DNA of 64,000 nucleotides from Bradyrhizobium diazoefficiens (lineage in GTDB: Bacteria > Pseudomonadota > Alphaproteobacteria > Rhizobiales > Xanthobacteraceae): the NCBI RefSeq assembly GCF_016599855.1, contig NZ_CP067041.1, positions 3,906,001-3,970,000 of the forward strand. Reading direction: 5' to 3'. Numbering within the stretch: the stretch's first letter is position 1; every line of letters starts with the position of its first letter. The notes under the pieces are model-generated. The model searched no databases and was not told where the DNA came from. It worked only from the letters and a program-made list of their open reading frames with translations. Shown one piece after another: positions 2,839 through 6,953 of this stretch. Position numbers and translations under genes: made by a program.

Positions 2839-2948
2839 AGCTCACTCACGGCAGGTGATTCATCCATAGCACGCCGGAACGCGCTGCAAAGGCTTGTAAT
2901 TATGGGCAATTGGGACTAGCTCAGGCCCGTCAATCAGGCAGATCAGAT

Positions 2949-4274
2949 ATGGATCAGACGGCTGCGCCCAAGGTCAGCTTCGTGTCGCTCGGGTGTCCCA
3001 AGGCATTGGTGGATTCCGAGCGCATCATCACGCACCTGCGCGCCGAAGGCTATGAGCTCGCCCGCAAGCATGACGGGGCCGACATCGTCATCGTCAACAC
3101 CTGCGGCTTTCTCGACAGCGCCAAGCAGGAATCGCTCTCGGCGATCGGCGAAGCCATGGCGGAGAACGGCAAGGTGATCGTAACCGGCTGCATGGGTGCC
3201 GAGCCCGAGCAGATCGAACAGGCCTATCCCGGCGTGCTCTCCATCACCGGCCCGCAGCAATATGAGAGCGTGCTCGACGCCGTGCATCGCGCGCTGCCGC
3301 CGGCGCACAATCCGCATCTCGACCTGGTGCCGCCGCAGGGCATCAAGCTGACGCCACGGCACTACGCATACTTGAAGATTTCCGAAGGCTGCAACAATCG
3401 CTGCACCTTCTGCATCATCCCGAAGCTGCGCGGCGACCTGGTTTCGCGTCCGGCCGATGACGTGCTGCGCGAGGCCGAGCGTCTCGTGGCTGCCGGCGTC
3501 AAGGAGCTGCTGGTGATCTCGCAGGACACCTCGGCCTACGGCGTCGATCTGAAATATGCCGAGAGCCCGTGGAAGGACCGCCAGGTCCGCGCCAAATTCC
3601 TCGACCTCGCGCGCGAGCTCGGCGAACTCGGAGCGTGGGTCCGGCTGCAATATGTCTACCCCTACCCGCATGTCGACGAGGTCATCGCGCTGATGAACGA
3701 GGGCAAGGTGCTGCCCTATCTCGACATCCCGTTCCAGCATGCGAGCCCCGAGGTGCTGAAGGCCATGAAGCGCCCGGCGGCGCAGGACAAGACTCTGATC
3801 CGGATCAAGCGCTGGCGCGAGCAATGTCCTGATCTCGCACTTCGCTCGACTTTCATCGTCGGCTTCCCCGGCGAGACCGATGCCGATTTCGCCTATCTGC
3901 TCGATTGGCTGGATGAGGCCGAGATTGATCGCGTCGGCTGCTTCAAATACGAGCCGGTTGCGGGCGCGACGTCGAATGCGATCGCAGGTGCCGTGCCCGC
4001 CGAGGTCAAGCAGGAGCGCTACAATGCCCTGATGGCGCGACAGCAGAAGATCTCGGCGCGCCGGCTGAAGCGCAAGGTCGGCACGCGGCAGCAGATTATC
4101 ATCGAGGAGGTCGGCCCGACGGTGGCCAAAGGCCGGTCCAAGGCCGATGCCCCAGAGATCGACGGCGCTGTGTATCTTTCGAGCCGCCGCCCGTTGCGTG
4201 TCGGCGAGATCGTCACCGCGAAGATCGAGCGCGCCGACCAGTACGACCTGCACGGCAGCGTCGCGGGATTCTGA
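2949..4274 (+). CDS. rimO: Ribosomal protein S12 methylthiotransferase RimO
   Basis: A radical-SAM enzyme that methylthiolates an Asp of ribosomal protein S12. The start at 2949 ([16 protein letters not shown]) gives 441 residues, the usual RimO length; an upstream in-frame ATG at 2910 would add 13 atypical residues. The N-terminal domain has cluster-binding cysteines in [17 protein letters not shown] and TGCMGAEP. The radical-SAM motif CNNRCTFC has Cys148, 152 and 155. The C-terminus is TRAM-like. The gene stands alone, divergent from nasT and followed by a REP-like palindrome. Confidence 0.95.
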
Positions 4275-5511: not shown

Positions 5512-5539
5512 TTGACAAGCCCTGCCGTTCGGCTGTACG
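5512..5539 (+). promoter_or_regulatory. Candidate sigma-70 promoter of the argD leader
   Basis: TTGACA at 5512-5517 is a perfect -35 hexamer. A weak -10 (TGTACG, 5534-5539) follows after 16 bp. Transcription would begin about 5545-5548, just upstream of the leader ATG at 5550, giving a leaderless or nearly leaderless short ORF. Confidence 0.45.
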
Positions 5540-5549
5540 GACGCGCCCC

Positions 5550-5639
5550 ATGATCAATTCTCGGACCCATCTGCGCCAAGCCATGCGTCGTCGCTCCCGC
5601 GACGATGATGGGTTGCGCCATGTCCGACGACGCCGCTGA
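5550..5639 (+). CDS. Arginine-rich leader peptide (29 residues) upstream of argD
   Basis: ATG at 5550 to TGA at 5637-5639 encodes 29 residues, 11 of them Arg: RRR plus RSR near the middle (codons 13-17) and RRRR as the last four codons. The Arg codons include CGT, CGC, CGA and CGG. It lies between a TTGACA promoter and a strong hairpin with a T-rich tail, followed by argD, an arginine-biosynthesis gene. This is the arrangement of an amino-acid attenuation leader. The run CGTCGTCGC (5586-5594) forms one arm of a 9-bp hairpin. Translation and function are inferred. Confidence 0.6.
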   Translation: MINSRTHLRQAMRRRSRDDDGLRHVRRRR

Positions 5640-5702
5640 ACCAGCAAACTCAGCACAGTTTTCGAGAAGGCCGCACCCGCAAAGTGCGGCCTTCTTGCTT
5701 TT
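5586..5702 (+). promoter_or_regulatory. Candidate arginine attenuator: pause hairpin, antiterminator, terminator
   Basis: Three competing structures are visible. Hairpin A pairs 5586-5594 with 5599-5607 (9 bp, one G-U) inside the Arg codons. A possible antiterminator pairs GGGTTGCGCC (5610-5619) with GGCCGCACCC (5669-5678), with two bulges. The terminator is 12 bp, AGAAGGCCGCAC (5665-5676) with GTGCGGCCTTCT (5684-5695), followed by TGCTTTT. A ribosome stalled at the central Arg codons would block hairpin A and free 5610-5619 to disrupt the terminator. The terminator hairpin is clear; the switching is inferred. Confidence 0.5.
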
Positions 5703-5756
5703 CGCGTCCCTTTTTCACCCGCCCCCAAGTCTTCCCTACCCCAAGAGGAGTTCGAC

Positions 5757-6953
5757 ATGACCACCGCCACCCATCCGTATGACGCGCTGATGGACATCAC
5801 CGCACGGCCCAAGGCCGTGTTCGTCCGTGGCGCCGGCTCATACCTCTGGGACGACAGCCGCAAGCGCTATCTCGATTTCGTACAGGGTTGGGCCGTGAAC
5901 TGCCTCGGTCACTCGCCGCCGGCGGTTGCGGAGGCGCTTAGCGCGCAAGCCAAGCGGCTGCTGACGCCGAGCCCGGCGTTCTACAACGAGCCGAGCCTCA
6001 AGCTCGCGCAGCGGCTCGTCGAGAACAGTGCGTTCGGCCAGGTGTTCTTTGCCAATTCGGGTGCAGAGGCCAATGAGGGCGCGATCAAGCTCGCACGCAA
6101 ATATGGCAGCCTGCACAAGAGCGGCGCGTTCGAGATGATCAGCTTCGAAGGCGGCTTCCACGGAAGGACGCTGGCGACGATGTCGGCCTCCGGCAAGAAG
6201 GCGTTCGAGCCGCTGTTCGAGCCGAAAGTCGCCGGCTTCATGAAGGCGAAGCTCAACGATATCGCTTCGGTTGAAAAGCTGATCGGCACGAATACCGTCG
6301 CGGTGATGCTCGAGCCGATCCAGGGCGAGTCCGGCGTCTGGCCGGCGACCGATCAGTTCTTGCGGGAGCTGCGCGCGCTCACCGAGGCGCACGACCTGCT
6401 GCTCATTTTCGACGAGATCCAGACCGGCATGGGCCGGACCGGAAAACTCTTCCACTACGAGCACACCGGCATCGCGCCCGACATCATGACGCTCGGCAAG
6501 GGCATCGGCGGCGGCGTGCCGCTCGCAGCCCTGCTTGCGACCGAGCGCGCCTCCTGCTTCGAGCACGGCGACCAGGGCGGCACGTTCAACGGCAACCCGA
6601 TCATGTGCGCGGCAGGTCTTGCGGTGCTCGAAGAGGTCAGCAAGCCCGATTTCCTGAAGTCGGTCACCGAGACCGGGCTGCTGCTCGAAAGCGAATTGCA
6701 GAAGGTCTCTGCCCGGCACGGCCTCGGCGGCGTGCGCGGCCGCGGCCTGCTGCTCGCGCTCGACCTCAAGCTGCCGATCGCGCCCGGCATCGTCGCGCAA
6801 GCGTTCGAGCAAGGCGTGCTGCTAAACGCACCGCAGGTCGACAGCTTGCGCTTCATGCCGGCGCTGAACGTCACGAGGGCCGAGATCGCCGAGATGATCG
6901 ATTGTCTCGACGGAATCCTGACCAAGGCCGGCGCGGCACGGCGGGTGGCGTAA
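5757..6953 (+). CDS. argD: Acetylornithine / ornithine-type aminotransferase (class III)
   Basis: A 398-residue PLP-dependent class III aminotransferase that most likely converts N-acetylglutamate semialdehyde to N-acetylornithine in arginine biosynthesis. Diagnostic features are [17 protein letters not shown], the [12 protein letters not shown] motif, and the PLP-binding lysine (about K248) in [13 protein letters not shown]. The ribosome site AAGAGGAG lies 8-9 nt before ATG 5757. It is preceded by an Arg-rich leader and attenuator-like terminator, which supports an arginine role. argF does not follow, so this may be a stand-alone or second argD copy. Other class III substrates cannot be excluded. 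Confidence 0.88.

Follow-up and report, generated by a model that had tools for sequence, protein, structure and literature searches.

The classical amino-acid attenuators are those of E. coli trp, his and leu, and to our knowledge arginine is absent from the usual list of amino acids under leader-peptide attenuation. In Pseudomonas, carA is a gene of the arginine and pyrimidine pathways. For that gene a leader peptide and attenuation are mentioned (PMC4997734); a survey of Actinobacteria covers trp, cys, ilv and leu leaders (PMC1262725); and argD, attenuator and leader peptide occur together in the text available from PMC4122931, which, however, concerns thrL and gene loss and holds no argD leader. 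An earlier note on this DNA had remarked that no arginine attenuator of this kind is well described, which needs a qualifier: Salmonella speF uses leader Arg codons, though by another mechanism, two Arg codons of orf34 sensing arginine and low arginine favouring expression (PMC6386406). A search of the literature, with most subscription papers and supplements lying outside it, returned no leader-peptide attenuator of an arginine-biosynthesis gene. The argD leader described here is a candidate for one.

The leader lies in the window, the whole 64,000-nucleotide stretch of Bradyrhizobium diazoefficiens DNA that was analysed, and all window features given below are on its + strand. It is preceded by the TTGACA box (-35; 5512-5517) already reported in the earlier note; a TTGAC stands 35-41 nt 5' of the leader ATG in all 80 parsed leaders and at 38 nt in 62 of them. 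A putative -10 element, TGTACG (5534-5539), is a weak match placed 16 nt 3' of TTGACA and falls in a CTGTA-like block conserved among relatives in the alignment. The leader ORF (5550-5639) has, as described before, 29 codons followed by TGA (5637-5639), and encodes MINSRTHLRQAMRRRSRDDDGLRHVRRRR, with 11 Arg in 29 residues (in order CGG, CGC, CGT CGT CGC, CGC, CGC, CGA CGA CGC CGC). It has no Shine-Dalgarno sequence in the window, an SD-like motif 5' of the ATG being found in 1 of 80 leaders, and is predicted to be leaderless or nearly so. The earlier placement of the transcript 5' end near the frame start draws no support from a promoter scan of the argD leader, which returned 0 promoters; the near-constant distance between TTGAC and ATG does point to such a start. 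The poor -10 counts against the attenuator reading.

Within the frame, the central Arg run CGT CGT CGC TCC CGC (5586-5600), the putative sensor codons, is kept in relatives; it is present in the Xanthobacteraceae-type leaders and, as RRR, in otherwise unlike ones. The same codons build the predicted 9-bp hairpin, CGTCGTCGC/GCGACGATG (5586-5594/5599-5607), which is found in the fold and in the RNAalifold consensus and sits within a longer stem closed by CGGAC/GTCCG (5562-5566/5622-5626). An intrinsic terminator follows, GAAGGCCGCAC-CCGCAAA-GTGCGGCCTTC with the tail TTGCTTTT (5666-5702), evident in sequence and fold and kept in relatives. Its T-tail is as first described, while its arms (5666-5676/5684-5694) form 11 contiguous pairs, or 14 in the computed fold, and not the 12 bp originally given; RNA beginning at 5632 forms this terminator at -31.3 kcal/mol. 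The exclusive partner structure is a composite hairpin (5608-5680), seen in the fold of 5602-5683 and in the ribosome-position profile. At its base GGGTTGCGCC (5610-5619) pairs, with bulges, with GGCCGCACCC (5669-5678), so that the pairing proposed in the earlier note turns out to be the foot of a longer antiterminator; in the middle TCCGACGAC (5623-5631) pairs with GTTTTCGAGA (5658-5667), and the tip, GCTGA/TCAGC (5635-5639/5650-5654), contains the leader stop codon. GGGTTGCG and CGCACCC are pairing partners in this structure, which folds at -26.6 kcal/mol (5602-5683; z -1.98, as good in 7 of 200 shuffles); the 221-nt leader region as a whole reaches -84.5 kcal/mol (z -6.06, 200 shuffles). 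Downstream stand a Shine-Dalgarno sequence, AGAGGAG (5744-5750), and argD itself (5757-6953), an acetylornithine transaminase by its match to the NCBIfam equivalog NF002985 (646.1 bits against a cut-off of 568). At gathering scores the only Rfam match within the window is a tRNA, and a described RNA family, riboswitch or T-box was rejected on the lack of any Rfam match of the leader. The upstream gene at 2946-4274 (+ strand), with radical SAM, UPF0004 and TRAM domains and of the RimO or MiaB type, is ordinary.

Of 80 ArgD loci fetched, 60 were aligned, one (L062) was viewed apart, and 19 distant ones (L069-L072, L076-L090) were only listed. The 60 aligned loci, 59 titled Bradyrhizobium and one Frankia, align over the promoter box, the Arg-rich frame and the terminator. 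The Frankia entry (L016, Frankia sp. RB7) has an argD of Bradyrhizobium type (93%) together with the leader, and is probably a mislabelled record or a contaminated assembly. In L039 one base of a terminator arm is changed, with frame and hairpins intact by eye. Loss of the Arg frame with the hairpin kept, which the earlier note had named as evidence against its proposal, was found only in L062, a metagenome assembly in which the leader is replaced up to the stop-codon hairpin by unrelated sequence, transposase-like by eye, upstream of position 478, while terminator and argD are kept; either the sensor was lost in nature or unrelated pieces were joined during assembly. Conservation of Arg codons and stems in the regions upstream of argD was thus borne out, covariation less so: the RNAalifold consensus holds two-sided changes in 5 of 27 pairs, the paired parts are nearly invariant in alignment A2, and covariation, whose limited extent counts against the attenuator, is modest since there is little variation in most paired columns.

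A covariance model (R1) built from 31 leaders gives a single strong match, at 194.5 bits, in the genome from which the window comes; the next, at 19.2 bits, is that terminator read on the opposite strand. Of the 295 family genomes, 128 have a match at E <=0.1, 35 of them at >=96 bits; the other 93 have matches of at most 32.2 bits, which we treated as noise. The strong match ends about 30-70 nt 5' of ArgD in all 35 genomes. A search for ArgD at E 1e-140 or better picks out 36 of the 295, namely the same 35 and G037, in which a different Arg-run leader, MQYASTNARRRRRARRFSAGAWDMRTR, stands with a T-tailed hairpin (locus L148). This co-occurrence of ArgD and leader, in 35 of 36 genomes and with another Arg-run leader in the 36th, is one of the grounds for the attenuator reading.

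A further ground is that the frame keeps its phase and the spacer behind it does not. In 80 distinct Xanthobacteraceae-type leaders, parsed with the requirement of an Arg-rich frame of 26-32 codons, the frame including its stop is 29, 30 or 31 codons long (6, 50 and 24 leaders) and no out-of-frame length occurs, whereas the spacer between stop and terminator varies from 23 to 33 nt in all three phases. A similar parser in the folding set missed six loci (L039, L062 and, from other phyla, L069-L072), none of which is a leader of the clade with a broken frame. Across the 80 leaders Arg is 99-100% conserved at columns 5, 9, 14, 15, 24 and 27, and columns 2-4, 7, 8 and 10-13 are variable. Single-base codon variants (n=62) fall on the three positions as 18/22/22, with 18 synonymous and 44 not; we counted this lack of a third-position or synonymous excess against the attenuator reading, and it is as expected if selection acts on the Arg codons and on RNA pairing, the peptide as such giving, on these sequence comparisons, no sign of selection. 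Over 70 frames, the codons of the central run are 125 CGT and 82 CGC of 207, with no other Arg codon, while CGT accounts for some 10% of the Arg codons when 32 long frames of the window are counted; pairing in the hairpin may explain the restriction to CGT and CGC as well as tRNA supply does. The Xanthobacteraceae frames close with another run of Arg codons (RRRR, RRQR or similar; 5625-5639 in the window). A stall there would favour termination, which also counts against the attenuator reading, but this run may be kept since its bases belong to the antiterminator, in which case its conservation is structural.

We folded the RNA downstream of the ribosome codon by codon, as it stands before the 3' arm of the terminator is made, and measured the capture of the 5' arm by upstream RNA. 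In the window, placing the A site on codons 13-15 gives a capture of 0.78, which drops to 0.09-0.15 for codons 20-22 and is 0.39 once the stop is reached; in eight other leaders it falls after the run to 0.00-0.32, L058 being back at 0.70 at the stop. Over 82 Xanthobacteraceae leaders, capture averages 0.79 while the ribosome sits on the Arg run, drops to 0.06 after six more codons and is 0.37 at the stop, against 0.51 on the run and 0.40 at the stop when the sequence after the run is shuffled (these values supersede an earlier pass over 15 leaders, 3 of them passing, that had used wrong arms or frames for several). The contrast between run and stop lies above the mean of a leader's own shuffles in 80 of 82 leaders and is reached by at most 1 of 10 shuffles in 60; it is absent in L058 and L122. 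We counted against the attenuator that the stop-codon value of 0.37 is close to the shuffles' 0.40, a partial recapture.

The same profile was computed for 33 frames of other groups (L184 twice). Capture is greater on the run than at the stop in 31 of these, and the switch is absent in L147 and L156, whose weak terminators count against the mechanism. By rule no clean hairpin was assigned to L148, L178, L188, L191, L203 and L204, although a T-tailed hairpin is visible on refolding L148, L178, L188 and L204. The 28 leaders of other groups with a clear terminator give 0.71 on the run and 0.20 at the stop (shuffles 0.50 and 0.40), a contrast of 0.51 where the shuffles give 0.10, and the observed contrast is reached by at most 10% of shuffles in 22 of them; L172, L176, L183, L186, L193 and L202 do not pass, and L176, L193 and L202 do not exceed their own shuffles. 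This set omits the spurious first frame of L184 and four leaders whose best hairpin, as chosen automatically, did not reach -10 kcal/mol (L142, L147, L156 and L192); in L142 and L192 the automatic choice overlooked an evident terminator.

Antiterminator segments also fit the terminator arms of their own leaders. Over 25 classes the native pairing averages -14.81 kcal/mol and the permuted one -14.16, with 0.5% of permutations, uncorrected for relatedness, as good as the native arrangement, and leaders with changed arms (L059, L061, L125, L129, L058, L122, L115) pair their antiterminator segment more favourably with its own partner than with swapped ones. The commonest arm class, slightly worse natively (-13.4 against -14.2 swapped), counts against the attenuator. 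In the complete leader at equilibrium, the terminator is preferred almost wherever the ribosome stands (0.86-1.00 for nine leaders with the ribosome on the Arg run, the exceptions being a few codons of L059, L061 and L137). This counts against the attenuator, and antitermination must therefore be kinetic, depending on the sequence in which events occur as the leader is transcribed. In ribosome-free folds, arm capture averages 0.59 and exceeds 0.6 in 44 of 81 leaders; many leaders therefore form the antiterminator unaided, and a strong protector hairpin is not general, a further point against. In the window this value is 0.30, the arm being mostly free, and the folds suggest that the default state without translation may differ between the window and its relatives. 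In these models antiterminator and terminator exclude one another, and ribosome position would decide between them. The conserved Arg run and this switch together uphold the attenuator-type layout that the earlier note had recognized, and its proposal that stalling on the Arg codons would favour argD agrees with the computed folds, the dependence on arginine or Arg-tRNA being our extrapolation from the codons.

Similar leaders precede argD in several other proteobacterial groups, well beyond the window's genus, as far as sequence can tell. A class-wide draw of 385 genomes held 8 with ArgD at 1e-110 (two in the window's genus), and two order searches found ArgD in 5 of 14 and 8 of 15 genomes. 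The resulting alphaproteobacterial set (L142-L147, L149-L158 and, from G037, L148) comprises 17 loci with ArgD identities of 60-71%; they are drawn from six families by tool labels and are thus not 17 independent cases. We scored a locus when an ATG frame of 8-60 codons with RRR and a hairpin with a T-rich tail lie upstream of argD, a loose rule that is satisfied at 17 of 17 alpha loci, although L147 and L156 have no convincing T-tailed hairpin. The peptides of different families are unlike (MLNLANRNRRRRSPAALARAR, MSPRTRIRVSRRRACV, MKKLNTLTNITSLRRRRS, MIRTATLRRRRHMHPLPGPRGRAHGHRIR and the leader of G037), and the Arg run and the layout are what the families share, pointing to codon sensing; this persistence of the Arg run outside the clade, while the rest of the peptide changes, is a third ground for attenuation.

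A draw of 299 genomes across the phylum, 26 with ArgD, added 19 loci outside the class, 5 of them with an RRR leader and hairpin; in L171, L173, L177 and L179, RR-type frames stand before a strong T-tailed hairpin. L171, L177 and L179, with L176, represent another leader type, MNFVQT... with RR, from a different proteobacterial family, and such leaders stand before a strong GGGTCACAGAC terminator and then argD. In the family of G922, taken for Burkholderiaceae because of the RF02884 match described below, 128 of 150 genomes have ArgD; among the 27 new loci within the best 30 of these 128, 16 have the leader, and L205 and L207, counted as misses, yet have an RR-type frame with a terminator. Jointly, the other classes have the RRR leader and hairpin at 21 of 46 ArgD loci, loci without a leader being scored as misses (for instance L164-L170, L175, L180, L182, L187 and L190). 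The rule is satisfied by 31 of 930 shuffles, 5 of 93 reverse strands and, elsewhere in these loci, 89 of 2440 windows (3-5%). In the Xanthobacteraceae group it is satisfied by 29 of 30 loci, which are non-independent since all except L001 were chosen by R1; the other three groups were chosen by ArgD. In a Myxococcales assembly (L069), a frame containing LRRRSR lies upstream of an ArgD of 54% identity.

Part of this family of leaders is already catalogued. RF02884 (BcKCsr7, 'Burkholderia sRNA 7'), met in 1 of 10 sources in an earlier scan, matches the argD leader, at 77.8-110.8 bits, in 4 of the 15 sources that were scanned (L181 1270-1423; L184 1292-1452; and, on the - strand, L192 2739-2891 and L201 2739-2893), and its model spans the end of the promoter, the ATG, the RRRR codons and the terminator; at gathering score it has no match in the window. 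The catalogued RNA, Bc_KC_sr7 (also RIT34 and nc5U30) of B. cenocepacia J2315, is listed as an expressed RNA of 147 nt, with no function given in the text available from that source (PMC10987360). In L184, which is not the J2315 genome, the stretch running from the first base of the leader ATG through the final T of the terminator likewise measures 147 nt, as expected of a leaderless start. In B. cenocepacia, 82 5' UTRs are reported to give short transcripts through processing or attenuation (PMC5688073), and nc5U30 is, judging by its name, probably among them. Leaderless frames are also common closer to the window, as 320 transcription starts in B. japonicum lie 0-10 nt 5' of start codons; the main text of that study does not name argD (PMC4842269).

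The leader-bearing argD is not the only copy. A second argD (L002 1501-2646; G000:C1:6866281-6867426), 43-44% identical, lies directly before argF, and this argD-argF unit has no RRR leader; the RRR frame is likewise absent before argC (best match below cut-off), argG and the second argD of the window's own genome. The leader-bearing gene may be the demand-responsive copy, but a second copy without a leader makes its weight uncertain, and we counted this against the attenuator. No argF match was found downstream of the leader-bearing argD on the stretches available for related loci, which extend from 2 nt to 2.5 kb (14 loci were read further downstream), and a leader serving an arg operon was rejected on that absence. 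A search with one ArgR model was negative for this genome and positive for 9 of the 14 controls; PMC5343134 reports ArgR to be missing outside the Gammaproteobacteria among the proteobacteria that it covers.

We propose that argD is controlled by ribosome-mediated transcription attenuation that senses the charging of Arg-tRNA, with a probability of roughly 0.87. Transcription would start at the leader ATG or a few bases 5' of it, and a ribosome coupled to RNA polymerase would trail it along the Arg-rich frame. With charged Arg-tRNA at hand, the ribosome would pass the central Arg run towards the stop and cover positions 5608-5634, the antiterminator's left side; the terminator at 5666-5694 would form, and transcription would stop before argD. 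When charged Arg-tRNA is scarce, the ribosome would wait at CGT CGT CGC (5586-5594), leaving GGGTTGCGCC unoccupied along with the other antiterminator segments; these would capture the terminator's 5' arm, and the polymerase would read on into argD. In addition to the three grounds given above, we favour this reading because ribosome-position folding yields a computed switch and the arms fit their own partners best, and because an ArgR match is absent and the RF02884 counterpart is a reported short transcript. A bolder extension, that argD attenuation is older than the divergence of Alpha- and Betaproteobacteria and does duty in lineages lacking ArgR, with the terminated leaderless Arg-peptide mRNA acting also in trans as a signal of arginine status, we regard as unlikely.

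Other explanations take the same parts differently. The hairpin could be an ordinary terminator of an independent transcript and the Arg-rich frame a chance product of GC-rich sequence, an account to which we give almost no credence. Arg richness by itself is weak evidence in such sequence: of the window's 125 short ATG frames (25-35 aa), 4 reach 11 Arg or more, so that such frames are not rare here, and in the alpha group the rule of RRR and hairpin is also satisfied by 3 of 17 reverse strands. What lifts the leader above chance is its conservation in relatives, with lengths that change only in frame, and the presence of RRR leaders at all 17 alpha ArgD loci against 4-6% of shuffles (7/170) and other windows (29/464); on frame constraint, conservation and these controls a chance frame was rejected. 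Alternatively, the leader could be mainly an sRNA gene or a dual-function leaderless mRNA, stopped by its own terminator and acting in trans, with argD receiving read-through. The cataloguing of the Burkholderia counterpart as an sRNA (RF02884; PMC10987360) and the trans-acting RNA and peptide of the S. meliloti trp attenuator (PMC7298713) lend this some appeal, but all 35 strong leader matches in the searched family stand directly before ArgD, unlike leaders elsewhere keep both the Arg run and the position before argD, and a pure sRNA would not need the Arg codons; we consider it improbable.

Arrest by the nascent peptide has precedents in ornithine and SpeFL, and a leader of that kind, in which an Arg-rich peptide or ribosome-bound arginine stalls translation, would suit a very basic peptide whose C-terminal part (RHVRRRR-like) is conserved in the Xanthobacteraceae set. 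Those conserved C-terminal codons, however, overlap antiterminator bases, the codon variants lack a synonymous excess, and between families the peptide beyond the Arg run is not kept; we judge arrest highly improbable, and sensing that is specific to peptide sequence was rejected because the peptides outside the Arg run are unlike between families.

If attenuation through the Arg codons is the true mechanism, it would explain how bacteria without ArgR tie arginine synthesis to demand, and RF02884, an orphan sRNA family, probably gains a cis function. As its leaders share little beyond sensor codons and layout, the family would form a natural series for attenuator evolution.

Compared with known systems, the argD leader has most in common with the classical attenuators and with S. 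meliloti trpL-trpE(G): a short leader frame with end-product codons in a row, an antiterminator and an intrinsic terminator that exclude each other, and a biosynthetic gene downstream. Its frame is predicted to be leaderless, as that of trpL is (PMC7298713, PMC10117765). It differs from both in its amino acid, arginine, in preceding argD alone, in its long composite antiterminator hairpin and in that a protector stem is not general. With speF it shares consecutive Arg codons in a leader frame, but orf34 works through Rho, masking of the RBS and RNase G, with no intrinsic terminator found there, controls an ornithine decarboxylase and encodes a conserved domain (PMC6386406); a leader of the speF/orf34 type was rejected since the argD leader has a strong intrinsic terminator. 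The uORFC-8-2 frame before cysS in Rhodobacterales is likewise an alphaproteobacterial tandem-codon leader with predicted ribosome-mediated attenuation, but with Cys codons and a tRNA synthetase gene (PMC8632094). Pseudomonas carA, likened here by description, has another gene and another signal, and RF02884, whose model leaves the window's leader unmatched, is listed as an sRNA. Set beside these systems, the argD leader is very probably a ribosome-mediated amino-acid attenuator, new for arginine and for argD, with a response to arginine that its codons lead us to expect.
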